A stretch of 64,000 bases of DNA, taken from Terriglobia bacterium (GTDB lineage: Bacteria; Acidobacteriota; Terriglobia; Acidiferrales; UBA7541). The notes beneath the pieces are model-generated. The model made no database searches, had not been told where the DNA came from, and saw nothing but the letters and a program-made list of their open reading frames with translations. This document shows, in pieces, positions 4,676 to 22,301 of this stretch; position 1 is the first letter of the stretch; the number at the start of each line of letters is the position of its first letter. The position numbers and the translations under genes are program-made. The stretch is from assembly GCA_020073705.1 (NCBI GenBank), contig JAIQES010000037.1, forward strand, positions 1-64,000, read 5' to 3'.

Positions 4676-7600
4676 TTACTTGTTCTTGCTGAGCCGGCGG
4701 TAATACTCCGCAACGGAATCCTCGTAGCCGGCGGGTACCGGCTGAGAATCGCCGCTGCGCACCTGCCCGGACTGTTTATCATCCAGTTGACGGCGTAACT
4801 GAAGCTCGAGCTTGTCGACACTGGCGAGCACTTGCGCGTGGAGCTGTTCGACCAGCGCCGGATTTTCCGGGTAACGGTTCGGGGCCAAGCGCTGCATCTC
4901 GCGGATCAGATCTTGAACTTCGCGTGCCATCTCAGGGTCTTCCCGAACCGCTTGGCGAAGCTGATCCAGATCGCGCAAGCTGTCCTGGTAAGCGCGCTGG
5001 GGCGGGATGGGAGGATTGTCAGGCTGGACCGGAGGTCCCCCCAGCGGGGTACCAATCCACGTATCGACGCCACCGTAGTAGCGGCCCCTACCCCAATTAC
5101 CGTCGCGATAGCCTCCTCCGTAGATGCCACCACCAAGTCTTGCACCTGGGCCCCCGACGGGACCACCCGCGCCCTGACCGTTTCCTTGTTGTCCCTGTTG
5201 GCGGCCTTGACCGTTGCGGGTGAGAGAATCTATTTGGCTGCGGAGCCGCTCCACACGATTTAGAGCGTCTTCGAGTCCTTGCTGCGAATCGTTTCCTTGT
5301 TGCGGGTCGGCGCCCATGGCCTGTTGAGCGTCACGGACCCCCTTTTCGAGGCGCTGCATCCCAGCGGTAATTTCCGGCTCAGCTCCACTGGCGTTTGGAT
5401 CTACGCCGCGACGCATCCAATCCGCACCTCGCTGTATGCGGGAGCGGAGTTCGGACTGTTGCATATCGCCGAGGGCCTCGCGCAGCTTGGAGGACGCGGC
5501 ATTCTGTTTATTCGTGGCCAGCTCCCGCACGGTGTCTTGCAGTTCCTTTTCCAGGCGGCCCAAGTCTTCGGCCAGGCGCTGGCGGTCGTCAGCGAGCTTC
5601 CGCTGATCTTGTAATCCAGGCTGTTCTCCCCGCTGTCCGAACATCTGACGGATGCGGTCTGATTGGTCGCGTTGCTCTTTCGCCATGCGGCTTGTCTCAT
5701 TGGCCAGCGAATTGACCCGCGCGGAGGTTTGCTGTTGGCGCATGCCGCCCAGCAAATCCGTGGCTTCCTTCAGGCGATCGGCGGCGCGGCGCGCTTCGGC
5801 ATCGCTCTGCTGCGGAGAAGTCGCGCGACGCATGTCATCGGTAGCCTGCCGGAGCCGGTCGAGAGACTGCTGGACGCGCGGGTCGGTTGAACCCTGTCTT
5901 CCTCCTGCACCCGATTGCCCCGCTGAACCGGAAGAAGAATTGCTCTGCGAGCTGCCCTGGGAATTGTTTCGCGCAAGTTGTTCCATCTGACGCTGTAACT
6001 CTTCAGCCTCCCGGCGCAGCATTTCCTGCTGCCAGCGCTGCTGGGAGCTTTGCATATTTTCGTTGCGCTGCTGCTGTGCCAGTTCCTCCTGGCGGCGCGC
6101 CAGTTGATCGAGCTTCTGAAGCGCTTCGTCGATCTCCTTCTCGCGCTGGCTTGCCGAGCCGGCGGTCTGGGCAGTTTCGTACTGATTCTTCTCGGTGTCG
6201 AGCTCCAGATCGAAAAGGCTCGCCAGGTCGCGCCCGGCGCCGCCCCCGCCTCCGCTGCCCCCGCCGCCACCAAACGCCACCTGAATCTGGCGGAACGTGG
6301 CCTCGGCGCGCAGCAAGTGCTGCAGGGCCTTCTGTTCGTCGGGAAGGGCCTCGGTCCACTCTTGCTGCTGCAATTTTTCGGACGCCGGGCCCATGGCGTC
6401 TGCAGCGGCGTTCATATCCTTCACGAAGCCATTGAACTCTTCATTCTCGTGCGATAGTTCGCGGCTCTGCATGCGCCCGGCCAGAGACTTCGCCTGATCG
6501 CGCAGCTTGGATTGAACATTGGAGAGGAACTTGGCGGCCCCGGCGGCCTCTTGTTTGGCCGCTTTGTTGTCGCCGCGCTGCTTCCAAGTCGCGGCGATGA
6601 TTTCCTTTTCGCGCTGCGAAATATCGTTCTGATCCATTTGGCCGCCGCCACCCCCTCCACCGCCCCCGGCCTGCTGGGACTGGGAGAACTCGCGTTCGAA
6701 CGGGTCAGCCTGAATGAAGGAGATGTCCGTGCGCGATTCGGCGTGGGCGTCCTTGGCACTCGCGTACAGGCTCACGACGTCGCCCGGCACAAGCTTGAAA
6801 TTCTCCAGGGAAATTGTGGTGGAGCCATCGGCCTGCTTGATGCCCTTCTGCTTGAGAAGATCCACGGCCTGCTCGGCGCCGCCGTTGACCGAGTAATGAA
6901 GCGACATGTCATAGAGGCCGAATTCGTCATCCGCCTTGACATCGACGGTGACCTCTTCGATGGGGCTTGCGCGATAATCGTGGCCGGGACGCGCAATGAT
7001 GATATCTGGCGGATTCGCCTTTCGGGCCTCGATGAAGAAATCGTTCGAGAGGCGGACGGGCTGCCCCTGGTCCAGGGCAGCAACATGGTACACACCGTCC
7101 TTCTCTATGCGAATGGTACCCTTGTACACGTTGCCCTCGCCGCCCGAGAGGCGAATCTGCTGTTCGTCGTCGAGGACCAGGACGCCGTCGCGCAGCGGCC
7201 GGTCGGTCTGAACTTCGAGGTCGGCTTGCGTGCCTTCGACCGCGCGGAGATCGCCGCCGCGCTCTTCCACGACGTTTTGCATCCGCGTCCATTCAGGATA
7301 GCGGTACGTCACACGGACATTCTTCACCCCAGGGAGATCCAGGACGCGGATGTTGAAGTGGCGCGAGCGGAGCGGTCCGGCTTCGACATAGTATTCGACG
7401 CTTTCGGGAAGGCCCGCGAAAACGAATTGGAATACGGAAGCTCCGGATTGCGGGTGCATGGGGACCTGCTCCCATTTGGAAGCACTCTGATAGCGTGCAT
7501 AGAGGCGCGCGGTGTCGGTTTGAAGACCAATGAGCTGCGCGGTGACGATCTGGTCGGCGTTGCGGCGGACGGAAACATCCCCGGGGGTCACTTGAATGTC

Positions 7601-8158
7601 ATAGAACGGGGCGGATCCGTTGCGAGTTGGAGCCGCCCACAGCAACGCGGCGCCGTGGCCCAGATACCCCGGGCCAGCCAGGATCATCCAGAGGAGTGCA
7701 CAGAGCGAGGCGGCACCGACGCCGAGCAATGCCGCCAGCTTGCGATTGGAAACCAAGCGCGCGGGTTCGGCCCCGCTGGCGACCTCGAGGGTGTCAGCGG
7801 CCAGCAACTCGATGAAGGGTTCGCGAACATCCGCATCTCGCTCAGCGAAGGTCACCAGACGCTGCTGGAATTCGGGGAAAACAGCCTCGGCCTTGCGGGC
7901 GGCACGCCGCCGGTTGAGGGCATTCAGAGGCAGGGCGATTCCAAAACTCAACGCCAAAGCGAGCGCGAAAAGCAGAGCGACGCGCGCACCGGTGATACTC
8001 CATTTGGAGAACGCGAACGCGTTCGTAATAAGCACAAGGACAACGGTGGCCGCCAGAGCGACCGAAGTCAGTATTGCGGCGCCGCGAAGCAATGCGCCAA
8101 GGCGCAAACGCTTCTCCAGCCGGTGAATGTAGGAGTTGAGCTGATCCCGAATGCTCAT
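4676..8158 (-). CDS. Large DUF4175 membrane protein (last gene of MoxR-vWA operon)
   Basis: About 1160 residues from MSIRDQLNSYIHRLEKRL. This start is chosen because its ATG overlaps the stop of the upstream gene (ATGA at 8158-8155). Membrane segments lie near residues 30-50, 60-80 and ~145-165. A beta-rich region (~190-510) resembles repeated Ig-like modules ('PPDIIIARPGHDYRASPIEEVTVDVKADDEFG' region, split here for brevity). The C-terminal half is a long Gln/Glu/Arg-rich helical region with two Gly-rich linkers (~530 and ~660), several coiled-coil stretches and a Gly/Tyr-rich patch near 1030. This is the DUF4175 architecture. Function is not established; in these operons it is thought to work with the MoxR ATPase and vWA proteins in the cell envelope. 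It is much larger than the other members of the cluster and is probably a scaffold. Confidence 0.85.
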   Translation of the reverse strand: MSIRDQLNSYIHRLEKRLRLGALLRGAAILTSVALAATVVLVLITNAFAFSKWSITGARVALLFALALALSFGIALPLNALNRRRAARKAEAVFPEFQQRLVTFAERDADVREPFIELLAADTLEVASGAEPARLVSNRKLAALLGVGAASLCALLWMILAGPGYLGHGAALLWAAPTRNGSAPFYDIQVTPGDVSVRRNADQIVTAQLIGLQTDTARLYARYQSASKWEQVPMHPQSGASVFQFVFAGLPESVEYYVEAGPLRSRHFNIRVLDLPGVKNVRVTYRYPEWTRMQNVVEERGGDLRAVEGTQADLEVQTDRPLRDGVLVLDDEQQIRLSGGEGNVYKGTIRIEKDGVYHVAALDQGQPVRLSNDFFIEARKANPPDIIIARPGHDYRASPIEEVTVDVKADDEFGLYDMSLHYSVNGGAEQAVDLLKQKGIKQADGSTTISLENFKLVPGDVVSLYASAKDAHAESRTDISFIQADPFEREFSQSQQAGGGGGGGGGQMDQNDISQREKEIIAATWKQRGDNKAAKQEAAGAAKFLSNVQSKLRDQAKSLAGRMQSRELSHENEEFNGFVKDMNAAADAMGPASEKLQQQEWTEALPDEQKALQHLLRAEATFRQIQVAFGGGGGSGGGGGAGRDLASLFDLELDTEKNQYETAQTAGSASQREKEIDEALQKLDQLARRQEELAQQQRNENMQSSQQRWQQEMLRREAEELQRQMEQLARNNSQGSSQSNSSSGSAGQSGAGGRQGSTDPRVQQSLDRLRQATDDMRRATSPQQSDAEARRAADRLKEATDLLGGMRQQQTSARVNSLANETSRMAKEQRDQSDRIRQMFGQRGEQPGLQDQRKLADDRQRLAEDLGRLEKELQDTVRELATNKQNAASSKLREALGDMQQSELRSRIQRGADWMRRGVDPNASGAEPEITAGMQRLEKGVRDAQQAMGADPQQGNDSQQGLEDALNRVERLRSQIDSLTRNGQGRQQGQQGNGQGAGGPVGGPGARLGGGIYGGGYRDGNWGRGRYYGGVDTWIGTPLGGPPVQPDNPPIPPQRAYQDSLRDLDQLRQAVREDPEMAREVQDLIREMQRLAPNRYPENPALVEQLHAQVLASVDKLELQLRRQLDDKQSGQVRSGDSQPVPAGYEDSVAEYYRRLSKNK

Positions 8159-10164
8159 GGTTCCTCCTGCTGTATCCCTAAGTATTGATCGGCAAGCAGG
8201 GATTCCGCAACGGCCGCCGCCAGTACCACAAGCATAATGTACCACCACAACGTGTAGGGCTTGGTCTGTTCCTGCGCCTGTCTCCCAGCCGCGGCCTTTG
8301 CAGCCCCCGCGGGATTCCCGCGCCAGAGCGATAGGACATCGTCCGGGATGACAGCGAGGTCGGATTCACGGCGGTCCGCGTTGACGCCGATCACATCGTG
8401 ACGCCCATTGGCAAGCTGGAGTTCGTAAAAGCCCGCACGCGTCAACTGGAAGGTCTGCGCGGACGCGGCCTCCTTCAAGGAAAGGGGCCGGTGGCCGTCG
8501 GGGTCGATGACCTCGACGCCCACGGCTTGCTCCTTGGAGGAGCGCAACTCGAAGAACGAGCCGGCCACGCGAGAGCCGCTGCGGCGCTCAGTGCCGGAAA
8601 GATACCAGGCGGTCTGCTCGACAAAGGGAACGAAGACCGGATGGAGAGGGAAATCGTTGGTCAGATTGTCGAGGCCGGAAGCGAACAGCAGTACACTTCC
8701 CTCGCCGATCTTCTTTTCCAGCAGCAACGGCGTCTGATCCGTCAGGCGAACGGCGACGCGGGAATTGGCGGGGTCCACGCGGACCGCAAAATAGAATTTC
8801 ACGCCGGACCAGCGGCCGGCTTTCTGCACGGAAGGGTGTGAAGGATCTGCTTCACCCACCGTGAGGAAACGCTCGCCACTGCGCGAGTAATCGCGGGATT
8901 CCAGGATGTTGCCGCCAAAAACAGGGATGCGCACGCCGTGCGCCGCGAAGGTCCCGGCGGCGATCCAGACACCGCCGCCGCTCTGGACGTATCGCAGCAG
9001 ATCATTTTCGAAAGAGGAGGGCAGCGACATCACGTCGGAAAGGACGACGAACGCGTACTTGGAGAGCGGAAGGCCGGCGGCTTGGCTAACGGTGACGGCA
9101 TCGAGCGTGAAGGCCGCTTCAGCGGCCGAGGCCAGCGCAGAACTAAAATAAAGTGGAGACCGCGAGTCGCCTGGTTCGTAAACGAATAGTGCGCGCCGAG
9201 GGTCGGAACGTTCCACGGCAAACAAGCTCGCGTCATCCGCGGGGAAAGCATCCGCCGAATCAATCCGCACTTCGCACCGGGTAAAGCCGTAGGGCACATC
9301 GAGCGACTCAAATTCAACGGTTGCGCGCCCCCCGGCGGGCACCTCGACACTGCGGGTGGCGATGGTCTTGCCGTTCACTAGAAGAGAAACTGTGCGGGTC
9401 TCGGCCGGAGTTCCGAATCCAGCGACAACAACTTGAACGCGCGTCTTCTTTGGGTCCCAGACCTGGCCGGGCGCGTTGACGCTTTCCACCGTCCAGTTCG
9501 GTACGGCATTCTTGACCACGGAATGCAGGACAAGAGATACATTCGCGGGCAGGGCCAATTCCGCGAAGCTTGCCGGCATCGCGGATTTCTGCATGTCGCT
9601 AAACAGATGGAGTTCGATGGGCGTGCGCACAGTTTCTGCCAGGGACCGGAGGGCGCGTGCAAGTTCGCCGAAGCTCCCACGGGAGTCTCCAGGCTGGAGG
9701 CTCTCCACGGCGGCGCGGAGTGCCCCCGCGTCTTGTGAAGGCTGGGTGAGGACCTGAAGCTGGGAACCGAGAGCCATGATTTGGGCGCGTTCCGCCGGTC
9801 TCCGGGAGGACAAGACAGAAAGCGCTTCGCGGCGCGCGTCGGCCAAGCGCGATCCGGCGCGCATGCTGAAGGAATTATCAATGACCAGCAGCAACAGCTT
9901 TTCGTTGCTCATGTTGGCAGCCGTCCGGTTAATGAACGGATTGGCGAACGCCAGCGCGAGCAACACAAGCAGGAGGGTCCGCAGCGACAGCAGGACCAAA
10001 TAGCGGAGGCGGCGATGCTTGATGGAACTCTGCGTGCGCCGGTCGAAAAACATCAGCGAGCTGAACGGATGCGGGATTGTCGTGTGACGCCGCAGCAAAT
10101 GGACATAAATGGGCACGGCCACCGCCGCCAGGCCCGCCAGGAACCAGGGAGCAAGAAAGCCCAT
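8155..10164 (-). CDS. BatA-like membrane protein with N-terminal double-TM and vWA domain
   Basis: 669 residues. The N-terminus (MGFLAPWFLAGLAAVAVPIYVHLLRR) is the BatA N-terminal double-transmembrane signature, with a second membrane span at ~55-75. A von Willebrand A domain follows with the MIDAS motif D96-x-S98-x-S100 (DNSFSM). The central part (~330-520) is glutamine-amidotransferase-like (FVVLSDVMSLPSSFENDLLRYVQSGGGVWIAAG), without a recognisable catalytic Cys. A last membrane span (WWYIMLVVLAAAVAESLLA) is near the C-terminus. It starts immediately after the DUF58 stop and overlaps the DUF4175 start by four bases. Proteins of this type bind metal through the MIDAS and are the presumed clients or adaptors of MoxR ATPases in Bat (aerotolerance) systems. 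Confidence 0.9.
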   Translation of the reverse strand: MGFLAPWFLAGLAAVAVPIYVHLLRRHTTIPHPFSSLMFFDRRTQSSIKHRRLRYLVLLSLRTLLLVLLALAFANPFINRTAANMSNEKLLLLVIDNSFSMRAGSRLADARREALSVLSSRRPAERAQIMALGSQLQVLTQPSQDAGALRAAVESLQPGDSRGSFGELARALRSLAETVRTPIELHLFSDMQKSAMPASFAELALPANVSLVLHSVVKNAVPNWTVESVNAPGQVWDPKKTRVQVVVAGFGTPAETRTVSLLVNGKTIATRSVEVPAGGRATVEFESLDVPYGFTRCEVRIDSADAFPADDASLFAVERSDPRRALFVYEPGDSRSPLYFSSALASAAEAAFTLDAVTVSQAAGLPLSKYAFVVLSDVMSLPSSFENDLLRYVQSGGGVWIAAGTFAAHGVRIPVFGGNILESRDYSRSGERFLTVGEADPSHPSVQKAGRWSGVKFYFAVRVDPANSRVAVRLTDQTPLLLEKKIGEGSVLLFASGLDNLTNDFPLHPVFVPFVEQTAWYLSGTERRSGSRVAGSFFELRSSKEQAVGVEVIDPDGHRPLSLKEAASAQTFQLTRAGFYELQLANGRHDVIGVNADRRESDLAVIPDDVLSLWRGNPAGAAKAAAGRQAQEQTKPYTLWWYIMLVVLAAAVAESLLADQYLGIQQEEP

Positions 10165-11055
10165 TTAGTGCCTCCCCTGCCGGATCGTGAGGTACTCCCG
10201 GAGTGCATCGTCGAGTGGCCGGTCAGTGACAAGCAAGTGATAGTCCATCCCGGAGGCGTGCGCTTTGTCGCGCAAGGCTTCCATGTGCGCGTCCAACTTT
10301 TCCCGGTACTCGCCGCGGGCATATTCCGGAGTGACCTCGATCCGCTCCTGGGTTTCCAAATCGACCAGCGTGGCCGGCTCGCCGAATTCGGGCCGGATTT
10401 CCTTGGGATCGAGAACATGAAACAGAACGACCTCATTCCCGTGGAAACGCAAAGGCTCGATCGTCCGGACGATGTTCTCCGGAGAATCGTAAAAGTCGGA
10501 GATGAATACCACCATTCCGCGGCGCCGCAGGAACTGCTGAAAGTGGTGGAGCGGCTTCGCGAAATCGGTGCGGGCGCGCGGCTCGGCGTGCTCGAGACCG
10601 CTGAGTAAGCGTACGAGTTGTCCCTGCCGCGTCGAAGGCCTTATGTACATGCGAATTTCATCATCGAAGACGATCAACCCCGCGGCATCGCGTTGCATCT
10701 TGATCGCGAGATAGAACAGCGATGCGGCCGTGAAACGAGCGTAGTCCATCTTGTTCACTCCATGAGAAGAGAAGTTCATGGAGTTGCTGGCATCGAGAAG
10801 CACGGTGAGTATGCTGTTTGTCTCGCCCCGGTAGCGCTTCAAGTAGGCACGCTCGGTGCGCGCAAACACGTTCCAGTCCACATGGCGGAGATCGTCGCCC
10901 GGAGAGTAGGCGCGGTATTCGGCGAACTCCTGGCTGAAACCGAAATCCGGCGAGCGGTGCAGACCGGCGACGAACCCGTCGACCACAGTCTTCGCCACCA
11001 GGTCCAGACCGGAGATCCCGGCGAGCACGGACGGATCGAGAAAGCGTTGCAGCAT
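10165..11055 (-). CDS. DUF58 protein (vWA-like partner of MoxR)
   Basis: 296 residues. The canonical DUF58 core is present: YSPGDDLRHVDWNVFARTER around residues 50-69, then a vWA-type strand with a MIDAS-like D88-A-S90-N-S92 (VLLDASNSM). The rest of the Rossmann-like vWA fold follows (GMVVFISDFYDS, EVVLFHVLDP). DUF58 proteins sit next to MoxR ATPases in almost all bacteria and are thought to be their substrate-recruiting partner. The A of the MoxR stop codon is also the A of this gene's ATG (TGATG at 11055), so translation is coupled. No signal peptide or membrane segment is seen, so it should be cytoplasmic or peripheral. Confidence 0.92.
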   Translation of the reverse strand: MLQRFLDPSVLAGISGLDLVAKTVVDGFVAGLHRSPDFGFSQEFAEYRAYSPGDDLRHVDWNVFARTERAYLKRYRGETNSILTVLLDASNSMNFSSHGVNKMDYARFTAASLFYLAIKMQRDAAGLIVFDDEIRMYIRPSTRQGQLVRLLSGLEHAEPRARTDFAKPLHHFQQFLRRRGMVVFISDFYDSPENIVRTIEPLRFHGNEVVLFHVLDPKEIRPEFGEPATLVDLETQERIEVTPEYARGEYREKLDAHMEALRDKAHASGMDYHLLVTDRPLDDALREYLTIRQGRH

Positions 11056-12083
11056 CAGGCCCCTGAAGGCGGCGGCATATGTTCGAGCAACCGGCGCAGA
11101 ATTTCGTCTGAATCGATGCGGTCCGATTCAGCATGGAAGTTCAATAGGATGCGGTGGCGAAGCACCGGAGTGGCCAGCGCCGTGATGTCCTCGTAGGCAA
11201 CGTGGTAGCGGCGGTGGGCCAGAGCGCGTGCTTTCGCCGCCAGGACAATGAACTGGGCGGCGCGCACGCTGCCCCCGTAGTTGACGTATTTCTTGACGAA
11301 GTCGGGCGCGATACCGCTGTTCTGGCGGGTGGCACGAACGAGTTCAATCACGTAACGAGCGAGAGATTCGCCGATCGGCACCATGCGGACCAGATTCTGG
11401 AAATCGAGAATTTCCTCCGCAGAGGTGACCGTCTCAACCTGCGCGACGTGCGTGGTGGTCGTCAAATCAACTACCTTCACTTCGTCAGCGGCGCTCAAAT
11501 AATCGAGAATGGTATTGAACAGGAAGCGGTCGAGCTGCGCCTCGGGAAGCGGGTACGTGCCTTCGAGTTCAATGGGGTTCTGCGTGGCCAGCACGAAGAA
11601 TGGTGAGGGCAGTTTATAGTGGTTACCGCGCACGGTGCAGGAAAGCTCCTGCATGGCTTCCAGCAGCGCCGATTGCGTTTTCGGCGGCGTGCGGTTGATC
11701 TCATCGGCGAGCACGATGTTGCCGAAGATCGGTCCCGGGACGAAGGTCCAGCGACGGTGCCCCGTGGTGGGATCCTCTTCGATGATGTCCGTTCCGGTGA
11801 TATCGGAGGGCATCAAGTCCGGCGTGAACTGGATGCGCTTGAAAGCCAGGCCGAGGGTCTGCGCAATGGTGCGGACCATGAGAGTCTTCGCCGTGCCGGG
11901 CAAGCCCGTGATCAGGCAATGGCCGCCGACAAACAGCGAGATGAGAATCTGGTCGAGCACTTCCTCCTGCCCCACGATGACTTTGCGCACTTGGGCGAGA
12001 ATGTTGTCGCGCACCGACTGAAAGCGTTCAATGCGCTTCTTCAGTTCCGCGGAGTCTGGATCGAGCTGAGCGATAGAGGCCAT
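11055..12083 (-). CDS. MoxR-family AAA+ ATPase
   Basis: 342 residues, normal for the family. Walker A is at ~60-67 (GLPGTAKT). Walker B is at ~123-129 (IVLADEINRTPPKTQSALLEAM), and sensor 1 is in FFVLATQNPIELEGTYPLPEAQLDRF. These are diagnostic of MoxR AAA+ proteins. They act as chaperone-like ATPases that remodel or activate partner proteins, usually delivered by vWA proteins. The downstream DUF58 and BatA-like genes and the upstream TPR-peptidase gene (3-nt gap) form one transcription unit with it. Family assignment is certain; the client of the complex is unknown. Confidence 0.96.
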   Translation of the reverse strand: MASIAQLDPDSAELKKRIERFQSVRDNILAQVRKVIVGQEEVLDQILISLFVGGHCLITGLPGTAKTLMVRTIAQTLGLAFKRIQFTPDLMPSDITGTDIIEEDPTTGHRRWTFVPGPIFGNIVLADEINRTPPKTQSALLEAMQELSCTVRGNHYKLPSPFFVLATQNPIELEGTYPLPEAQLDRFLFNTILDYLSAADEVKVVDLTTTTHVAQVETVTSAEEILDFQNLVRMVPIGESLARYVIELVRATRQNSGIAPDFVKKYVNYGGSVRAAQFIVLAAKARALAHRRYHVAYEDITALATPVLRHRILLNFHAESDRIDSDEILRRLLEHMPPPSGA

Positions 12084-12086
12084 TGT

Positions 12087-14294
12087 TCATTTCCCTTCGT
12101 TGGAATCCTTCATCTGCAGCAATAGCTTTTGAGCGGGCCGATAGTCGGGCGCGGCCTCCAGTGACGTGAGGAGGTGCTCCTCGGCCATATCTTTCTGTCC
12201 TGTGGCAAAATATGCGCGGGCTAGATTGAATTGCGCGGAAGCCTTGTCGAGCGGGTGCGATGCGATCACGGCGTTGTATTCACGGATTGCGCCCGTGTAA
12301 TTTTTTTGCGCGAACCACAGATCGCCGAGATGGCGGTGAAGCTCTTCATCGACCGGATCAATGTAGTTGAGGCGATCGAGCGTGGCAGCGGCCTCCGTGG
12401 GTTTACCGAGTTCCTCTTCGAGCGATGCCAACTGCTTCAGGGATTGCGGGCTACGCCCGCCCTTCTTCTCGTAATCGGTGAGCACAGCAGCGGCGGACTG
12501 CTTATTTCCTTTCGCTAGGTCGGCCTCGGCCATAAATTCGTAGGGATTCGCGGCATAGACGTAGTCCGGATACATGCGGCGGACTTCGTCGCCTTCCTTG
12601 AGGACTTCATCGTAATTCTTGTTCTTGGCTTGCTCCACCAGATCCTTCAAGCTCGTGCGCCACTTGTCAAAGTTTGCCGCCGTCTGGCCGACGTCCTTGT
12701 CCAGCCAATCCAGAAACTGCTTGTCGAATTCCTCCGGCTCCAGGCCCAGATCCTGCCGAATCACTTCGGGCGTTGTCTTGCGCTGCGCGAAGGAGTGCAC
12801 CATATCCAGTAACTTGTCTGCGCCCCAGCGGCTCTGGATATAATCGCAGATGCGGCCCGCCTGATAGTAGGAAACGATCACCTGCATTGGATATCGGGGG
12901 CGGATGAAACCGCGATCAAGCTCCGCGATCGGAAGCAGCTTCTTGTCGCGGATGGCGACAACAACATCCGGGGTCATGCGGTCACCCCACTCGGGAGAGG
13001 CCTCCGTTTCCTCGTGGACCGCCAGCCCTTCGGTAAACCAGCGCGGAACGCGATGGTCGGTTGCGGTGAGAATATAGACGTGGCTCATCTCGTGCCACAG
13101 TGTGCTGGCCCAATGAAATTCGCCGGGAGGGCGGCCCGATGGGCTGTCCATGGCGATGACTTCACCGAAGGTGACACCCAAAGCGCCCAAGCCGGGCATT
13201 CCCATCGTGCGCACGGCAAAATCTTCATGGTCCGGGTAGACTTCCACCTGAACGGGGCCTGGCAGCTTCATCTTGTACTTCTTCTCATAGGTGGCAATCG
13301 AGCGCTTCAGCACGGCTTCGAAGTACGGATAAAGAAGTTCGGCTTCCTTCTTCTGAAGCTTGAGGATCGTCGTTTCATCCCTGAAAGTGACAAAGTTTTT
13401 GTAACTATCGAGCAGTCGAAGACTGTTGACCGTCTCTTCATTCCGGTAACCGTTGTCGTAGCATATTTCGAGCTGCTTGCGCGGTTCGTCTTCCTGGCCC
13501 ATGCGCATGAGGTTGATGCCGAGCTGCGCGCGCGCCGCCCAGAGCCGCGGGTCCACTTCGATCGCCTTACGGTAGTAGGCAATGCCCTCCTGATAACGGC
13601 GGTTGAGCACGAGATGATGCGCGACGAGCGCGTAGCCTTCGCCGTAGGCAGGATTGACCTGACGGATCTTTTCGAACCACGCATCGGGCGAGCGGTCGGC
13701 CAGAGCTTCGATGGCCGCATGGATGGCCATGGCATCGAGCGCCTCGGGAGAAATCTTAAGAGCCTCATCAGCCTCTGCAAAAGCTTTTTCCTCGTCGGAG
13801 TCCTCCAGCAAAAGGTTGGCCATCAATTCGTGCGCTTGGACGAACTTCGGATCGAGTTCCAACGCCTTAGCGGCCCATTCGACGGCTTTGCTGTCGAACC
13901 CATCGGCGCTAACCAGGGCGAGACCATAATAGGCTTGAGCGTTCTTCGCGTCTTTTTCCAAAGCTTCCTTGAAAAGGTTCGCAGCATCGGTGTTGTTGAA
14001 GCGCTCATGCATCAGGCGGCCCCAGCGGACGCGGTACATGGCGTTCGAAGGCGACTGGGCCACCGCGATGCGGAACTGGTTGTTGGCCTCCTGATACATC
14101 TCCATGCCCCAGTAGCCTTCGGCGCGGAGGTACGGATCGCGCGCGACGCTGAGCGACTCGTAGCATTTCTGAGCTTCGGCTCGATGGCCGTGCTTGCGCA
14201 GGGCGTGACAATTCTCGGGCGTCGCGGCCCAGGACATGCTTGCGCCCAGCAGGCCCGCCAAACACAGCACGCAGCTCCTAGTCACCCGCGTCAC
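12087..14294 (-). CDS. Exported TPR protein with gluzincin (peptidase MA-like) domain
   Basis: 735 residues from a GTG overlapping the stop of the upstream gene (GTGA). The signal peptide ends near SMSWAA. TPR-like helical repeats occupy ~25-300 and again ~560-735. Between them lies a metalloprotease domain with HEMSH at 401-405 and a third ligand Glu in WFTEGLAVHEE (E422), the gluzincin HExxH…E pattern of peptidase MA-like proteins. All three zinc-binding residues are present, so it is probably active. The TPR arms would hold a substrate or the other proteins of the operon. The signal peptide places it in the periplasm, on the opposite side of the membrane from MoxR. Its position directly before moxR in a tightly packed operon suggests a shared role. 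Confidence 0.85.
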   Translation of the reverse strand: MTRVTRSCVLCLAGLLGASMSWAATPENCHALRKHGHRAEAQKCYESLSVARDPYLRAEGYWGMEMYQEANNQFRIAVAQSPSNAMYRVRWGRLMHERFNNTDAANLFKEALEKDAKNAQAYYGLALVSADGFDSKAVEWAAKALELDPKFVQAHELMANLLLEDSDEEKAFAEADEALKISPEALDAMAIHAAIEALADRSPDAWFEKIRQVNPAYGEGYALVAHHLVLNRRYQEGIAYYRKAIEVDPRLWAARAQLGINLMRMGQEDEPRKQLEICYDNGYRNEETVNSLRLLDSYKNFVTFRDETTILKLQKKEAELLYPYFEAVLKRSIATYEKKYKMKLPGPVQVEVYPDHEDFAVRTMGMPGLGALGVTFGEVIAMDSPSGRPPGEFHWASTLWHEMSHVYILTATDHRVPRWFTEGLAVHEETEASPEWGDRMTPDVVVAIRDKKLLPIAELDRGFIRPRYPMQVIVSYYQAGRICDYIQSRWGADKLLDMVHSFAQRKTTPEVIRQDLGLEPEEFDKQFLDWLDKDVGQTAANFDKWRTSLKDLVEQAKNKNYDEVLKEGDEVRRMYPDYVYAANPYEFMAEADLAKGNKQSAAAVLTDYEKKGGRSPQSLKQLASLEEELGKPTEAAATLDRLNYIDPVDEELHRHLGDLWFAQKNYTGAIREYNAVIASHPLDKASAQFNLARAYFATGQKDMAEEHLLTSLEAAPDYRPAQKLLLQMKDSNEGK

Positions 14295-15259
14295 TTGTCC
14301 AACTCCTCCTGTACTCTGGCCAGGTCGAGAAGCGCGTCGGAAAGCTGCTTCTTGTAATTCTCCGCTGACATGGCGGCCTTCTGGTACTTGAGGGTATCGA
14401 TCTTGCGCTCCAATTCCTCTTTCTTCTCGAGCAGCGCGCGCTTGGCTGGATCACTCGCGGCTTTCTGCGCGGCGCCCAGCCGAAGAAGGACAAAATTGGA
14501 AGCCAGCAACCCTTCTCCGTTATCAGCCGAAGCTGCCCGGACCGCTTCTTTTTTGCCGGTGTCCTCGATCACGGCGTGTTCGGTTGCCAGACGCTTTTGC
14601 GATTCGTAAAAAGAAGTCGTCTTACGGTCGGCATATTGGAACGCTTCGAGAGCGCTGATCGCTTCGTTTTTGTCCAGGTCCGCCGAGGAATCATGCAGCG
14701 CCTCCACCCAGTAACGGGCAAAGACCGTGGCGTTCTTCTCCGTGCCGGTCTTTGTTGCGGCGATGACGATGCGTCCGGACTTCTGAAGCGCGCCAATGGA
14801 GCCCCCGCTTGCGCTGGTCGTGTTCACGATCAGTTGGCGCTTCGCGGCCACGCGGTCACATAACGAGGCCAGCTCCGCTCCGGAGATGTCCGGACCGGGC
14901 AGATTGAACTTGTACTCGACGCCGTCGAATGAGCCGTGACCGATGAGGATAAGAACGAAGTCATCTTCCGGCTTGGCTTCGCGCGCGATCAGATTCATCG
15001 TTTCGGTCAGATGCGCTCGCGTGCTCTCGCTTCCGGTCAACGTGTAGACATGCGCACCGGCCGCCGAAGGCTTGAACAATTTTTCTACATCCTTGGCCAG
15101 CGCAGTAAACCGCTGCTCGTAATCGGGCTCGCCACCCAGACCCGCGACCGTGACGTAGTAAGTAGCGGCCCGTGCGGGAAGCCCGGACAGACCAAGACAT
15201 CCGAGGCAGAGGCCGATCAACAACTTGGCCTGCAGAGTGGTCTTCATGCGAATCTTCAT
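14291..15259 (-). CDS. Exported C13/caspase-fold protein with catalytic Cys replaced by Ser
   Basis: 322 residues from MKIRMKTTLQAKLL; the ATG at 15259 overlaps the upstream stop (ATGA). A second in-frame ATG at 15247 is possible. A signal peptide ends at LPARAA. The central domain looks like peptidase C13 (legumain/caspase clan CD). Strand 'FVLILIGHGSFDG' carries the catalytic His108, and 'QLIVNTTSASGGSIGAL' sits where active members have a C-x-S-G motif. The Cys position is Ser149 (codon AGC at 14815-14813), one base from TGC. The C-terminal ~60 residues form a Lys/Glu-rich coiled coil. It is therefore probably a pseudoenzyme, a binding module, or a serine-type variant. It lies between a vWA membrane protein and a TPR-gluzincin gene. 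Confidence 0.75.
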   Translation of the reverse strand: MKIRMKTTLQAKLLIGLCLGCLGLSGLPARAATYYVTVAGLGGEPDYEQRFTALAKDVEKLFKPSAAGAHVYTLTGSESTRAHLTETMNLIAREAKPEDDFVLILIGHGSFDGVEYKFNLPGPDISGAELASLCDRVAAKRQLIVNTTSASGGSIGALQKSGRIVIAATKTGTEKNATVFARYWVEALHDSSADLDKNEAISALEAFQYADRKTTSFYESQKRLATEHAVIEDTGKKEAVRAASADNGEGLLASNFVLLRLGAAQKAASDPAKRALLEKKEELERKIDTLKYQKAAMSAENYKKQLSDALLDLARVQEELDK

Positions 15260-17520
15260 ACAACGCCCCACTTTCGGCGCAAGAGCCATTCGGAGGAGCG
15301 CAATAACAGAATCAGCAGGAAGACCGCCGGCATGTTCCAGAGATCCTTCGTATCACGCACGGTGATGCCAGCTTCGGAATAGGAAATCTCGTTCGGGAGC
15401 CTGGACAAATCCTGGGGCCTCCAGTACCGCCCTCCGGTCTGCGAAGCAAGCTTTTCAAGCAGTTCGCGGTTCTGCCCGGTGTGAAAATTCTCGGCGACAC
15501 CGTCCATGCGCGCAAAGGTCAATACGTCACGGCCCAGTTCTTCGGTGCCTCGTGTAGCGGTCACCTCGGTGAGAAAAGATCCAGGCTTATCGGCGTTCCA
15601 GTCAGCGTGGAACGTGCCCGGCGTGTTCGCATCCGGAGACATCTCGATCTGGACCGCGGCGCCCCCCGGCCCCAGAATGTGCGCCTCGACGCGGGCATCG
15701 GCGGCCGGCAGATAGTTTTTGTCGCGCACATCGGCTGAAAAGCGAATGCGGCCATCGTCAAACAGCATCTGGCTTGGGACCGATGCGACCACGCGGCCCG
15801 GCGTGTCCGTAACGAGCCAGCGAAGCAGTTGCTGCCAGAATTCCTCATGGGTCGGGTCTCCCAAAGGCTGGCTCATTTGCCAGCGCCATGTGCCGCCGGT
15901 GGCCAGCACGGCGGTCCGCCCGCGGCCGTAGTTTTGCGTGATCAAAAGCGGCAGCTTCCGGCTGCCAGCGTTCATTTCCGCCAGGACAACTGCCCCGGGC
16001 TTCGGAGTGCCGGCCTCCTGATAATTCATAAGGTACGGGAGCTTTTTCCAGCATTCAACATTGCGTGCGGGGTCCTCCACCAGTCTGGTGATGGTATTGT
16101 CGGCGCCGGCAGGGGTAAGTTCCACCGTGGCTGGATCGCGGTGGAATGTACCCTTCTTGTTGGGAAGGACGACCGGAAGCAGGTCCGCAAGACTTGAGGC
16201 GCCCCAGCCCCCGTCGCCCAACGAGGCTCGGCCTCCGAGCAGCAACAGCCCACCTCCGCGCCGATCAACAAACTGTCGGATCAGCTCCTGCTGAGCCGCC
16301 GTAAAATAGCTTGCTTCAAGCGACCCGATGATCAGCGCCTGGTAACCGAAAAGGTCCTCGACTCGGGATGGGAAGCCCTCAGCCAATTCCTTTGGGTCGT
16401 CAATCCCCTGGCGGTAGATCTTGTTTTCGCTGGTGCGGAGCATGGAGACCAACTTTACAATGCGGTCATCTTCCTCAGCCCGCCGGATGAACTTGTATTC
16501 CCAGCGAGGCTCACCCTCAACGTATAGGATGCGGCGCTTATTCGATTCGACGTTGACCATGCGGGTGACGGCGTTGTTGGCGCGGTTCTCTTCCCCGGGT
16601 AGCGCGTCGATCGAAAACTGGAGAGTTTTGGCTCCGGCGGCGCCCGCGTTGAATAGAAGAGTCTCGCTCTGGCTCTCGCCGTCGGAGGCCAATGTAACCT
16701 CGCGGGCAGCCAAAACTTTTTCACCATCGCGAACCGTCAGCATGGTTTTCTGTCCGCCATAGCCGCGCTGATGAAAACTGACTTGGGCGGCCAGGCGAGA
16801 ATCAGCCAGAGCCCGCGGCGCGACAATGGCGTCGTCAATCTCAACGTCATGCGGCACCTGTTCGAGACCAAACCCGACGGTGTGAACCGGAATGCGCCGG
16901 CTGCGAAACGTGGAGATGGTCTCCAGGTCAATCCCGCCTGAATTGTCAGCCCCGTCGCTAAGCAGCACCACGGCGCCGATGGGCAGGTCGGCTGCTTCAC
17001 CGGCCAATTGCCTGAGGCCGACGCCGATGCGTGTCGCGGCGGCCGGGGCCGATGTCTTCAACTCGTCCAGCTTGGAGATGCGCGCCAATTGACCGTCGAC
17101 ACGGTAGAGGCGGATCTGAAATTTCTTTTGCAGCTCGTCGAGCACGCCACCCTCGAGCGCCTTGACAGCCTGGGACTCCCGCGTCGCACCGTTGTCCGGG
17201 ATGGACATGCTGCGCGAATCGTCCACCAGGACAGCAATGATGTTCTGCTGCGGCTTGAGCTCGGCAACCAGGATCGCCGGCTGCCACAACAAGATAAGCA
17301 GCAGCGCCGCCATGGCGAATTGCAGCAGCCAAATGACGCCCGCCTTCCAGTTCCTGACGTGCGGGGACGCCTGCGGGAGCCGCGAGCGGATCAGCCATGC
17401 CAAACCGGCGGCAGCCGCAAGGACAAGAATGACAAGAATCCACTTCGGCCAGGCGCCGAGCAGGACAAAATCGCCCTTCGAGAAGACTGCGCGCGGATAC
17501 TTGAAAAGGAATTCGAACAT
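15256..17520 (-). CDS. Membrane vWA/glutamine-amidotransferase-like protein
   Basis: 754 residues. Membrane spans lie near 26-46, 62-84 and ~728-742. A vWA domain has MIDAS residues D100-D-S102-R-S104 (VLVDDSRSM), followed by GAVVLLSDGADNSGG. A class I glutamine-amidotransferase-like fold occupies ~390-570 ('YQALIIGSLEASYFT', 'FVDRRGGGLLLLGGRASLGDGGW'), lacking an obvious catalytic triad. Beta-sandwich modules follow. The build resembles the BatA-like gene further down the operon, and the two may be paralogues that form a heterocomplex. It overlaps the pseudo-caspase gene by four bases. No strong ribosome-binding site is seen at the ATG, and the small gene 43 nt upstream may provide coupling. 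Confidence 0.85.
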   Translation of the reverse strand: MFEFLFKYPRAVFSKGDFVLLGAWPKWILVILVLAAAAGLAWLIRSRLPQASPHVRNWKAGVIWLLQFAMAALLLILLWQPAILVAELKPQQNIIAVLVDDSRSMSIPDNGATRESQAVKALEGGVLDELQKKFQIRLYRVDGQLARISKLDELKTSAPAAATRIGVGLRQLAGEAADLPIGAVVLLSDGADNSGGIDLETISTFRSRRIPVHTVGFGLEQVPHDVEIDDAIVAPRALADSRLAAQVSFHQRGYGGQKTMLTVRDGEKVLAAREVTLASDGESQSETLLFNAGAAGAKTLQFSIDALPGEENRANNAVTRMVNVESNKRRILYVEGEPRWEYKFIRRAEEDDRIVKLVSMLRTSENKIYRQGIDDPKELAEGFPSRVEDLFGYQALIIGSLEASYFTAAQQELIRQFVDRRGGGLLLLGGRASLGDGGWGASSLADLLPVVLPNKKGTFHRDPATVELTPAGADNTITRLVEDPARNVECWKKLPYLMNYQEAGTPKPGAVVLAEMNAGSRKLPLLITQNYGRGRTAVLATGGTWRWQMSQPLGDPTHEEFWQQLLRWLVTDTPGRVVASVPSQMLFDDGRIRFSADVRDKNYLPAADARVEAHILGPGGAAVQIEMSPDANTPGTFHADWNADKPGSFLTEVTATRGTEELGRDVLTFARMDGVAENFHTGQNRELLEKLASQTGGRYWRPQDLSRLPNEISYSEAGITVRDTKDLWNMPAVFLLILLLRSSEWLLRRKWGVV

Positions 17521-19210: not shown

Positions 19211-20182
19211 TCAGGACTTTCTTTCGCGGTCAGGTTCAACCGCGGTTTCGACCCGATTCAGCCGGTCTACCAGGGTATTCAAGGCCTGGAGCAACGACTC
19301 AATCAACGGGGGATTATCACCGTTGCCTGGATGCGGAAAGGGCTGGGCTGGCGCCTGCACGAGTGGATCGATAATGTGCAGATCGAAGTCGCGGGCCACT
19401 TCTTCTATGATTTCTGGAGGCACAGGATTGAGCTGGTCCACAAAGGAACTGACCAGGGCATGTTCGCACAACAGATTAGTCACCCGGGGGATTCCGCGGG
19501 CGTAGCGGTATACGGCCGCAATGGCCTCCGGACTGAAAATCTCGGTGTTTTCGGCACCGGCGATGCGCAGGCGCTCTTGAATGTAGCCTTGCGTTTCCTC
19601 GATGGTGAGCTGACGCGTCTTGGCACGCAGCGTAATGCGCTGCCGAAGCTGGCGCAGTTGCGGCTGGCTAAGTTTCTGGTCCAGTTCAGGCTGCCCCGAG
19701 AGCACAATCTGCAGCAGCTTTTCGGTCGAAGTCTCCAGGTTGGTCAGCAACCGAATTTCTTCCAGCATCTGCGGCGAAAGGTTCTGCGCCTCGTCAACAA
19801 TCAGCGCGGCGCGTTCCCCCGCCTGGTAACGCTCCAGCAGCCACTGGTTCAGCTTGAGGAGCATCTGGCCCTTTTGCCGCGATTCGCAGGGAATGCCGAA
19901 GTCGGCCATCATGAACTCGAAGAACTGCATGACGCTTAGCCGAGGATTGAAGACAAACGCTGTCGAAACGCGTTCCTTGTGCAGCCATTCCAGCAGCTTG
20001 TTGACTAGGGTGGTTTTCCCGGTCCCCACCTCGCCGGTCAATAGAATGAAACCCTTGCGCGTCTCAATTCCATAGGTCAAGCAGGCCAGCGCTTCCTGCG
20101 TATGATGCGTCAGGAACAGATAGCGCGGATCCGGGTTGACGTTGAACGGGTTCTCTTTGAGCCCGAAGAACTTCTTATACAT
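19211..20182 (-). CDS. ExeA/GspA-type AAA ATPase (XrtA/EPS-associated family)
   Basis: 323 residues. The N-terminus MYKKFFGLKENPFNVNPDPRYLF is the typical ExeA/general-secretion ATPase start. Walker A GEVGTGKTT is at ~50-58 and Walker B AALIVDEAQN at ~126-134, followed by 'LEEIRLLTNLETSTEKLLQIVLSGQPEL', which is diagnostic. The length and motifs match the ATPase associated with exosortase/EPS loci (pepcterm_ATPase type) as well as ExeA. The C-terminal tail is Pro-rich and lacks a peptidoglycan-binding domain. The neighbouring outer-membrane barrel and Wza-like genes on the same strand suggest a role in polysaccharide export rather than type II secretion. Confidence 0.88.
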   Translation of the reverse strand: MYKKFFGLKENPFNVNPDPRYLFLTHHTQEALACLTYGIETRKGFILLTGEVGTGKTTLVNKLLEWLHKERVSTAFVFNPRLSVMQFFEFMMADFGIPCESRQKGQMLLKLNQWLLERYQAGERAALIVDEAQNLSPQMLEEIRLLTNLETSTEKLLQIVLSGQPELDQKLSQPQLRQLRQRITLRAKTRQLTIEETQGYIQERLRIAGAENTEIFSPEAIAAVYRYARGIPRVTNLLCEHALVSSFVDQLNPVPPEIIEEVARDFDLHIIDPLVQAPAQPFPHPGNGDNPPLIESLLQALNTLVDRLNRVETAVEPDRERKS

Positions 20183-20319
20183 TTACGGATCCCTCGGCTT
20201 CTAGCTTCAAATGCCGGACGCTGGCCCTTTTTTCCAGCGCGCATGCGGAATGGCCCCGGCGATGTTTCCTCAACTCGCCGTAAGGTGCTTGCCATTTCGC
20301 GAGTTGTCAGGGTCATGAC

Positions 20320-21786
20320 TCATTCAACCGCACGCAGATGCCAGTTTACCGTCATACCGCCCGTTTGTTGAAAACCCGTTACACCGCAGCTCGCGACCGG
20401 GCATACAACAGGATTATATTGCTTCAGGAGGCCATAATTGAAGCTAATCCACGCGTGTCGCCCAAGCTGACGGACAAGGTTCGCGCCGATGAACCAAGTG
20501 TTGAAGCTGGCCGTAGCGGTGCCAACTGGGACCAGGTTTCTGTTGAATGCATAACCGCCGTTCACCGACCCGGACCAGAACCGAGTAAATTGATGGTGCA
20601 GCGACCCCCTAAACGTGTTGCTGAGGGCGCCGAAAAGTACGCCCGAACCATTGGTGAGCCCCCGCGCAAACCCAAGTGAGAATCCGCTGCGGCGGCGCTC
20701 ATAGGTTAAGGCGCTATTGACTAGCCCCGTCCACATTTGAAAGTTCCCGCTTGCCAGGCCGGTACCACGGATCTGCTCCGGCCCGGCCGCCGCCTGGAAC
20801 GCCAGCCGTCCAGTAATCTTTCTTCCAAAGGCCAACGCCACCCCATAGTCCCCTGTCGAAATCGAGGTGCCAGTGTAATCAATTTTGCCGTAGCTTGCGA
20901 GGACGGCAATGGAGTCTTTGGGGTCCAGCAGATAGTCATAGCCTGTTTGCGCGTTAATGCTGCGGCTGCTGATATAACCCGTGCCGGGGAAATGCAAGAT
21001 CCCATACGAGCCGGCGAAGGAAAATGCCGATCGCCGGCTGAAGGAATATTCTGCCTCGCCCAGAACTGTGTTCATGTATCGCATAACCTGCCCCGTCTGA
21101 ATGGTATCGGCCAGGACAAATCGCTGTCCGATGTTGTGCAGCGCATCTGCAAAAGTGGAGGAAAATTGCCCGATGAGTCCGGGTCCTCCCATGCCAGCTC
21201 CACCAAAAAGCGCCAGCGGTGAGACCGCGAAGTCGTCACGCAGATGCAGGCGCCAACGCTCCCAGTCGATTTCTTGCGCGATAACCAGATTGTGAAATGA
21301 CCGATTAGGTGTGGGACCATGATAGAGATTTTCCCCGCCGTCGTAGGTGGCAGTGAAATGGTAGCGGCTCCAGATTCGGTTGAAATTCAGGCTCCCTCCG
21401 AATATTGTGACTGCCTGTAGTCTGGACTGCCCCGCTGTGTATATTTGCCCGGACTGCCCCAATTGACTAAAAGAGACCGCGGGATCAAAGACGTTGCGCG
21501 AGTGTTGCAATGAACCCACGCCGAAAAGTTCAGCGCCGGAAAGTGTATTGGTATCCGGTTCGACCTGCGCCAGATCGTATGGCCCGGGATCGTATGCTGA
21601 AGAGACACCGCGCGCGGCCGGAACAGGCGCCTTGCCGAAGCCGTTGCTTCCACCGGAATAGATAGGAGGAATCGGAGAAGCAGGAGTGACGGACCGTGGA
21701 TCCTGTTTTTGATCTTGCGCGCGGATTGCGGTGACGCAAAGCACTAGAGCGACGGCGAGGGCCCGGACTGTCTTCAGCAATTTCAT
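20320..21786 (-). CDS. Outer-membrane beta-barrel protein of EPS-type locus
   Basis: About 488 residues. The ATG at 21786 is preferred because a GAGGTG ribosome-binding site lies 6 nt upstream; a GTG at 21795 is in frame. A signal peptide ends at AIRAQ. A Pro-rich linker is followed by ~380 residues of alternating hydrophobic/polar strands with repeated aromatic-terminated segments (FHFTATYDGG-like, SFSRRSAFSFAGSYGI, YGVALAFGRKI, LTYERRRSGFSLGFARGL). The last strand ends MTVNWHLRAVE. This is typical of outer-membrane barrels adjoining polysaccharide export genes. It lies 12 nt downstream of the Wza-like gene. It probably forms or assists the outer-membrane exit for a polysaccharide, although the pore partner is inferred only from context. 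Confidence 0.75.
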   Translation of the reverse strand: MKLLKTVRALAVALVLCVTAIRAQDQKQDPRSVTPASPIPPIYSGGSNGFGKAPVPAARGVSSAYDPGPYDLAQVEPDTNTLSGAELFGVGSLQHSRNVFDPAVSFSQLGQSGQIYTAGQSRLQAVTIFGGSLNFNRIWSRYHFTATYDGGENLYHGPTPNRSFHNLVIAQEIDWERWRLHLRDDFAVSPLALFGGAGMGGPGLIGQFSSTFADALHNIGQRFVLADTIQTGQVMRYMNTVLGEAEYSFSRRSAFSFAGSYGILHFPGTGYISSRSINAQTGYDYLLDPKDSIAVLASYGKIDYTGTSISTGDYGVALAFGRKITGRLAFQAAAGPEQIRGTGLASGNFQMWTGLVNSALTYERRRSGFSLGFARGLTNGSGVLFGALSNTFRGSLHHQFTRFWSGSVNGGYAFNRNLVPVGTATASFNTWFIGANLVRQLGRHAWISFNYGLLKQYNPVVCPVASCGVTGFQQTGGMTVNWHLRAVE

Positions 21787-21798
21787 CTTATTCACCTC

Positions 21799-22290
21799 TT
21801 ATGGAACGACAATGGTGTCGCCCATTCCCGGCAGCATGGGAAATGCGCCCGCGCGAAGCACTTCGCCGACTACGAACACGCGCTGGCTATTGATTGCCGT
21901 GACAATAACCGTCACCTGCGGCTCATTGAGATACTTGCGCAGTCTCTCGGTCACCGTTCCGGCCAGTTGCTGCGGCGACAGTCCAGCCGCCTGCACGTCA
22001 TTGATCAGCGGCAGCGAAATCCGCCCGTCGGGGCGCACCGGCACGACGCGACTTACATCCGGCTCTTTCCAAACGCTGATATCCAGCACGTCTTCCGGTC
22101 CGATTAGATAGGCCGGATCCATTGTCGCCGGGGTAGGCGCCGTCTTGCTATCGGCCGCGGGGGCCGCGCTATTCCGAGCTGCAGCAACCGTCGTTTCTTT
22201 CCCGTCATTCTTTTTGTCTTGTTGCGCTGCCCAGGTCATTCCCGTGTTGGCCAGTACAATAGCGGCAACGAAAATTATCTTTTTGTTCAT
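21799..22290 (-). CDS. Short Wza-like polysaccharide export protein (truncated SLBB)
   Basis: 163 residues from the ATG at 22290, which has a GAGGAG site 7 nt upstream. ATGs at 22296 and 22305 are also in frame, the last overlapping the upstream stop. A signal peptide precedes an Ala/Lys-rich linker. The polysaccharide export domain is clear: YLIGPEDVLDISVWKEPDVS, VRPDGRISLPLINDVQAAG and LSPQQLAGTVTERLRKYLNEP. Only the first strands of an SLBB domain follow (INSQRVFVVGEVLRAGAFPMLPGM), and the protein stops at DTIVVP, where relatives continue with a helix-containing SLBB domain. It is therefore about half the usual length. The stop is followed directly by the ribosome-binding site of the barrel gene. 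Either the SLBB was lost or this is a short variant. Confidence 0.82.
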   Translation of the reverse strand: MNKKIIFVAAIVLANTGMTWAAQQDKKNDGKETTVAAARNSAAPAADSKTAPTPATMDPAYLIGPEDVLDISVWKEPDVSRVVPVRPDGRISLPLINDVQAAGLSPQQLAGTVTERLRKYLNEPQVTVIVTAINSQRVFVVGEVLRAGAFPMLPGMGDTIVVP

Positions 22291-22301
22291 CTTCATTCTC
22301 C

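Follow-up and report, generated by a model that had tools for sequence, protein, structure and literature searches.

Among putative prokaryotic caspase homologues, 16%, the single Gemmatimonadetes sequence included, are reported to be without an intact catalytic dyad (PMC3501461), and inactivity is described for about 70% of the caspase domains that occupy the effector position in MoxR-vWA systems, which have been proposed to act as peptide binders or dominant negatives (PMC7159879). MoxR ATPases and their vWA partners remodel or metallate targets (PMC9976466), and Ca2+ dependence or stabilization is known for metacaspases and gingipains (PMC4357240); all of these sources were available to us as excerpts. 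Here we analyze a gene in a 64,000-nucleotide stretch of DNA from a Terriglobia bacterium of the Acidobacteriota (assembly GCA_020073705.1, contig JAIQES010000037.1, positions 1 to 64,000; the whole stretch is referred to as the window), the product of which is predicted to have the fold of the peptidase legumain and carries Ser at the position of the catalytic Cys.

We consider it likely, with a probability of roughly 0.68, that this product is a Ca2+-bound, non-cutting adaptor, that is, a secreted pseudoprotease of legumain fold that forms a fixed part of a periplasmic MoxR-vWA envelope module of the Bat type. What points to this reading, from the sequences and a structural model, is the fold, a nucleophile missing in all members seen, a kept His, an EF-hand-like loop, a conserved operon, and co-inheritance with a vWA/GATase1 protein. 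Relatives are identified below by locus (L) or genome (G) labels.

The gene, its product and the predicted fold

The gene and the elements of its product are as follows.

14291..15259, minus strand: legumain-fold pseudoprotease, 322 amino acids (open reading frame, model and fold matches, 215 distinct relatives)
15167..15259, minus strand: N-terminal hydrophobic stretch, residues 1-31, likely signal peptide (hydropathy scan; cleavage site judged by eye)
14936..14938, minus strand: codon (14938-14936) of His108, the catalytic-His position, in IGHGSFDG (His in 215/215 relatives)
14813..14815, minus strand: codon AGC (14815-14813) of Ser149, at the catalytic-Cys position, in NTTSASGGS (alignments to Cys-bearing relatives)
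14645..14680, minus strand: EF-hand-like Ca2+ loop DLDKNEAISALE, 12 residues, D194-E205 (conservation across 215 members)
14297..14449, minus strand: C-terminal helical hairpin, residues 271-321, not covered by most legumain matches (model; helices 240-261 and 268-290 in mature numbering)

The length of 322 residues follows from an ATG at 15259; a longer start at 15289, giving 332 residues, is a possible alternative. The start codon shares four bases (ATGA) with the stop codon of the vWA/GATase1 gene that precedes it, and the stop shares four bases with the start of the downstream TPR-gluzincin gene, overlaps that suggest translational coupling. Counts of promoter-like sites (2 found against 3.4 expected) and terminator-like sites (22 against 15.3) were not used as evidence. 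The hydropathy scan gave a Kyte-Doolittle value of 1.68 for residues 9-27, and a hydrophobic stretch precedes the domain in 196 of the 201 relatives with enough upstream open frame, from which it appears that the protein is probably secreted.

Searched alone, the window protein had no match in Pfam (0 families at E ≤ 1), NCBIfam or PHROG, and its matches among PDB sequences were at chance level (best E 0.049). Peptidase_C13 (PF01650) was nevertheless matched at E ≤ 1 by 11 of 20 aligned relatives, and the Pfam cut-off for C13 was passed by two of the four family members scanned (L125 and L018), the window protein not being one of them. The caspase/metacaspase family C14 (PF00656) had no match in the genome, and the dyad of the window protein is His-Ser, not an intact His-Cys. 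A profile of relatives (75 rows, from 79 chosen representatives) matched metacaspase-4 in HMMER with an E-value of 1.4e-6.

An AlphaFold2 model, built from 81 sequences (the window protein and 80 loci from a scan of a contig collection), had a predicted local distance difference test score (pLDDT) of 93.0 and a predicted template modelling score of 0.90. Human legumain supplied the top Foldseek matches (E 2.9e-8), and VIA-align placed prolegumain (4nol_A) first, with Z 21.0 and a root-mean-square deviation of 2.3 over 193 aligned residues, so that legumain heads both lists; plant legumains, metacaspases 4 and 9, glycosylphosphatidylinositol transamidase and caspases stand below 4nol in the second. 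The matches cover model residues 1-235. By the model, then, the pseudoprotease has a legumain (clan CD) fold, and this structure prediction, which had been named as a check on an earlier proposal of a well-preserved domain of caspase/C13 type, bears that proposal out.

Delimitation of the family

Relatives were drawn from three sources: 61 near genomes, 20 of which were positive for the pseudoprotease; a contig collection, from which the best 80 of 546 confirmed relatives were taken; and 396 genomes of the phylum, with 137 matching at E ≤ 0.001 and 113 of these below 1e-40. The family set began as 252 open frames above 120 bits and came to 215 after removal of identical or contained sequences. 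Matches below 120 bits were left out, including all Cys-bearing caspase/C13 proteins (about 20-51 bits) and fragments such as a partly masked copy in G214, and the counts at the Cys position given below therefore hold for the family as delimited at that score; among the matches listed for the 396 genomes none fell between 38 and 93 bits.

The catalytic site

His108 follows a hydrophobic strand and then comes Gly (LIGHGS), as for the catalytic His-Gly of C13 peptidases. The column of Ser149 is that of the nucleophile in two alignments. The first, with Cys-bearing C13-type proteins of the same phylum (L140, KMVIQMKQCFSGGF; L131, QLVAVLEPCFSGGL), is free of gaps around the motif; in the second, the HMMER alignment of the 75-row profile, the Ser column falls on the Cys of metacaspase-4 (SDSCHSGG, 6w8s), which is Ala in the C139A entry 6w8r. 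Among the 215 distinct members this column holds Ser in 182, Glu in 12, Asn in 5, Pro in 5, Thr in 4, Ala in 4, Gly in 3 and Cys in none. As a control we read the column in the 20 loci of the phylum that match Pfam C13. Six of these are members of the family, and Cys was found in 12 of the 14 that are not (ten, together with the same proteins as L140 and L142), which leaves L275 and L276.

On a FastTree tree built without the Cys column and its neighbours, and without rows of 200 residues or fewer, at least 17 changes separate Ser from non-Ser, with 21 changes in all and six for Glu alone. A second clade (L172, L178, L208, L213, L221, L222, L224, L226, L228 and others) has Glu, Ala or Gly at the column, often with Phe-Pro replacing Gly-Gly (TTEASFPFL); in most of its members BatA and DUF4175-like genes precede the vWA gene. 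The ratio of nonsynonymous to synonymous substitution rates (dN/dS) was 0.08-0.20 in seven of eight close pairs, one of them with Pro at the column and two of them being the same gene fetched twice; in the eighth dS was saturated. These ratios indicate that purifying selection acts on the pseudoprotease.

At the level of sequence, loss of the Cys probably preceded the spread of the family through the phylum, and Ser at its column is common, yet dispensable. The absence of Cys from all 215 members, the other residues in 33 of them and the 17 or more switches together argue for a long-standing pseudoprotease and not a serine nucleophile. The original prediction had noted the Cys-to-Ser exchange, His108 in IGHGSFDG and selection acting on the fold, and the alignments, the invariant His, the dN/dS ratios and the fold match agree with it on each. 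It had left the choice between a pseudoprotease and a serine variant open, and of these the first has gained and the second lost; Cys throughout the homologues, the outcome it named as refuting, did not occur. Alignment of homologues, which it had proposed as a check on whether Ser is fixed, gave Ser as the majority residue, but not a fixed one.

The EF-hand-like loop, other conserved residues and alternative readings

The 12-residue loop, a feature beyond what had been claimed for this protein, fits the EF-hand/dockerin pattern DxDxNxxxSxxE (positions 3 and 5 may be N, S or D, and position 9 may also be T). Position 1 is Asp, position 3 Asp or Asn, position 5 Asn, Asp or Ser, and position 12 Glu in all 215 members, and position 9 is Ser or Thr in 214. 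The loop can also be seen in L131, L140 and L142, relatives that bear the Cys, and was therefore probably inherited from an active ancestor. Given this conservation, the pseudoprotease would be expected to bind Ca2+.

Conservation extends to residues outside the loop, and it was reasonable to consider that these form a different site. The Gly and His of GHG and the Gly and Asp of GPD are invariant (215/215 each), the Asn of KFN is present in 207 members, the Glu of TEH in 214 and a later Asp in 212. A non-proteolytic enzyme or ligand binder, in which His108 would join the GPD motif and the Asn of KFN in a new active or ligand site, would account for a conservation of the first three motifs that is unusual for a dead site. 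On the other hand, these residues may be structural, and the Pfam and PDB searches returned no known family with such chemistry; we regard this reading as unlikely.

More doubtful is an active Ser149-His108 dyad within the legumain fold. The prevalence of Ser, the invariant His and the purifying selection would all fit such an enzyme, but 33 of 215 members carry Glu, Asn, Pro, Thr, Ala or Gly in place of Ser, with at least 17 switches on the tree, and among them L034, L036 and L044, which are 65% identical to the window protein and lie in the same operon, have Glu. The legumain motif E-A-C places a Glu two residues before the catalytic Cys; here that residue is Thr, Ala, Met, Gly, Ser or Cys. 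Taken together, this makes a serine protease improbable.

It is less probable again, to the point of being hard to sustain, that the nucleophile moved, either to a Cys one residue later (TSCSGG, 17/215) or to the nearly invariant Ser151 (209/215). The shifted Cys is rejected for the window protein, which has Ala there, and six members are without Ser151, a residue that is likely structural because it matches the Ser of Cys-x-Ser-Gly in most Cys-bearing relatives. Finally, a recent loss of Cys or a sequencing error in the window genome, conceivable in that AGC is one base from TGC, is ruled out for practical purposes by the absence of Cys from all 215 relatives and by the use of both AGY (153 members) and TCN (29) codons for Ser, which makes the change an old one.

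The operon and its inheritance

Six further genes of the window make up the operon.

15256..17520, minus strand: vWA/GATase1-like membrane protein, directly upstream, with a DDSRSM metal ion-dependent adhesion site (MIDAS) motif (Pfam GATase1_like 2.8e-10; VWA only 0.22)
12087..14294, minus strand: TPR protein with a Peptidase_MA_2 gluzincin domain (HEMSH), directly downstream (Pfam)
11055..12083, minus strand: MoxR AAA+ ATPase (Pfam AAA_3 2.8e-60)
10165..11055, minus strand: DUF58 (vWA-like) protein (Pfam DUF58 2.3e-42)
8155..10164, minus strand: BatA-type vWA membrane protein (Pfam BatA 2e-15, VWA_2 1.5e-10)
4676..8248, minus strand: DUF4175-like large membrane protein, start codon uncertain (Pfam DUF4175 6.8e-4, weak and below cut-off; conserved operon position)

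The MoxR, DUF58 and BatA-type genes are contiguous on the same strand and constitute a Bat-type MoxR-vWA module. Hydropathy identifies the vWA/GATase1 and BatA products as membrane proteins; the N-terminus of the TPR-gluzincin looks like a signal peptide by eye, while the hydropathy scan found no stretch above threshold in it. The functional motifs of the neighbours are kept, in contrast to the Cys of the pseudoprotease: HExxH is intact in 138 of 138 homologues of the TPR-gluzincin, and the MIDAS residues DxSxS in 171 of 174 homologues of the vWA protein. No VMAP, iSTAND, FtsH or beta-propeller third component was named by the Pfam matches of the seven gene products. The window MoxR also matches the bpMoxR of beta-propeller systems (3.5e-10), and the best PADLOC match, for this MoxR ATPase, was 2.4e-5.

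The position between a vWA membrane protein and a TPR-gluzincin had been thought unusual, a view that the relatives overturn. Among the best 80 of the 546 loci the vWA/GATase1 gene is upstream in all 80 and the TPR-gluzincin downstream in 79, the remaining one (L066) ending at a contig edge, followed by the MoxR, DUF58, BatA and DUF4175-like genes where the sequence allows. Of the family members with more than 600 bases of sequence on the side concerned (4500 for MoxR), 202 of 210 have the vWA/GATase1 gene as their immediate upstream neighbour, 157 of 209 are followed immediately by the TPR-gluzincin, and 126 of 153 have MoxR no more than 4.5 kb downstream. In a second layout the vWA gene comes after the BatA and DUF4175-like genes.

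Outside the phylum, a plasmid collection yielded one good match, in Gemmatirosa kalamazoonensis (Gemmatimonadota), along with seven weak and partial ones, mostly of caspase type. The Gemmatirosa genes, read by eye from the list of open reading frames, lie in nearly the same order in one run: vWA/GATase1, pseudo-legumain (VDASSASADF), TPR-gluzincin, a gene that we take to be DUF4159-like, MoxR, DUF58 and BatA. The pseudo-legumain family is present across the Acidobacteriota and is shared with the Gemmatimonadota (one replicon record).

In the 396 genomes of the phylum, with a best E-value below 1e-40 counted as a strong match, the vWA/GATase1 protein was found in all 113 genomes that hold the pseudo-legumain; five genomes had the vWA protein only and 278 had neither (Fisher p about 6e-94, a statistic that ignores the relatedness of the genomes). 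Two of the five are G214, with its partly masked pseudoprotease, and G138, where the sequence stops at a contig edge. Among the 61 near genomes, those with the vWA/GATase1 protein are the same 20 as for the pseudoprotease plus G002, where residues 1-480 alone match before the contig ends; BatA (E below 1e-20) occurred in the same 20 and G002, with two weak matches elsewhere, and the TPR-gluzincin (E below 1e-40) in 19 of the 20 gene-positive genomes and none of the other 41. Of the 31 genomes that belong to the window's own family but to other genera (G006-G036), only 4 hold the gene, which is common elsewhere in the class, and this patchiness implies that the module comes and goes as one unit, through loss or transfer.

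Several further observations were made at related loci. In G398 (L145/L266) an apparent natural fusion of pseudoprotease and TPR-gluzincin was rejected, since the pseudoprotease part changes frame half way; that copy appears broken, and the TPR-gluzincin continues in the first frame. The contig of L044 (JASHYG010000224.1), titled Gammaproteobacteria bacterium, carries the acidobacterial operon and is probably mis-binned. Separate Acidobacteriota proteins (L133, L134, L138, L139, L141) join a caspase-like domain to C-terminal tudor/agenet-like domains, with Pfam Tudor-knot matches of 3.5e-8 in L133 and 7.8e-7 in L139 and the other three judged by eye; L139 is without the Cys. Upstream of the operon in the window (19211-22305, minus strand) lie, by eye, an ExeA-like AAA ATPase and polysaccharide-export-like open reading frames, apparently unrelated.

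Proposed function

The exported appearance of the protein, the remodelling role of MoxR-vWA pairs and the precedent of inactive caspase domains make a non-cutting, Ca2+-stabilized binding subunit of the periplasm the most likely function by analogy. The pseudoprotease would be exported to the periplasm, where Ca2+ would bind and stabilize it, and the old substrate groove and the C-terminal helical hairpin might hold a peptide or partner without cutting it, most probably either the portion of the vWA/GATase1 protein that lies in the periplasm or a protein on which the TPR-gluzincin acts. Proteolysis by the module, if any, would fall to the gluzincin encoded next to it, with energy or remodelling supplied by MoxR and passed through the vWA/DUF58 proteins.

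A number of observations weigh against this proposal. Ser149 is still the residue of 182 members and His108 is invariant, a degree of conservation beyond what a dead groove would require, so that some chemistry may persist. The TPR-gluzincin is not the next downstream gene in 52 of 209 members, which makes a partnership with it less certain than one with the vWA/GATase1 protein. The vWA gene is not directly upstream in eight of 210 members, of which six (L181, L187 and L217, for example) have a TPR-gluzincin there; in G318 and G192 the vWA gene lies elsewhere, together with MoxR, and the other three of the five vWA-only genomes (G255, G428 and G276) hold distant vWA/GATase1 proteins next to which nothing matches the family profile.

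A more specific version of the non-cutting adaptor is a Ca2+-gated clamp, in which the dead groove, with His108 in its grip, would capture an unfolded or misplaced envelope protein and present it to the vWA/GATase1 protein and the gluzincin, such that MoxR would control periplasmic proteolysis across the membrane. We offer this tentatively, as an outside chance; if it were true, the whole secreted pseudo-legumain family would serve MoxR-controlled proteolysis across the membrane.

The old puzzle of what Bat/MoxR-vWA operons do in the cell envelope is now tied to a specific, testable partner. The family is also a clear-cut natural example in which a protease fold of clan CD has been kept phylum-wide for what would be a non-cutting use, the His and the Ca2+ loop being retained while the nucleophile drifts. 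Culturable Acidobacteria carry the operon (Terriglobus albidus DSM 26559, L045, for example), so knock-outs are feasible.

Comparison with known systems

Legumain itself, of family C13 (clan CD), shares with the pseudo-legumains the fold (Z 21), the position of the His and the region of the Cys-x-Ser-Gly motif. It differs in that no member of the family described here has the catalytic Cys, in that a C-terminal hairpin extends beyond the matched span, and in that the window protein misses the Pfam model.

The pseudo-orthocaspases and other inactive prokaryotic caspase homologues (PMC6426788, PMC3501461) are, as described in the excerpts, likewise proteins of clan CD fold with a replaced dyad in which Ser is the commonest substitute for Cys. 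However, their commonest variant has also lost the His (Tyr-Ser), which is invariant in the pseudo-legumains, and the latter are predicted to be secreted, are C13-like and belong to a fixed operon. The main text of PMC6426788 contains neither the word 'Acidobacteria' nor the word 'legumain'.

The MoxR-vWA ternary conflict systems (Kaur et al. 2020, PMC7159879) also combine MoxR, vWA and a catalytically inactive caspase-like domain. There, according to the excerpted account, VMAP or vWA effector proteins carry the caspase domain as a fusion, mostly in multicellular lineages, whereas the pseudo-legumain is a separate protein, predicted to be secreted, in a Bat-type operon with a TPR-gluzincin. 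The Bat (Bacteroides aerotolerance) operon (PMC3557215) shares MoxR and BatA-type vWA membrane proteins, for which a periplasmic complex was proposed, but the excerpted text mentions no legumain-fold or gluzincin protein. In the openly licensed PMC literature we found no secreted C13-like pseudoprotease fixed in a Bat-type operon, and neither the family nor the operon. Inactive clan CD proteins in bacteria, and inactive caspase domains with MoxR-vWA, were known already; the addition here would be a pseudo-legumain in a Bat-type operon.

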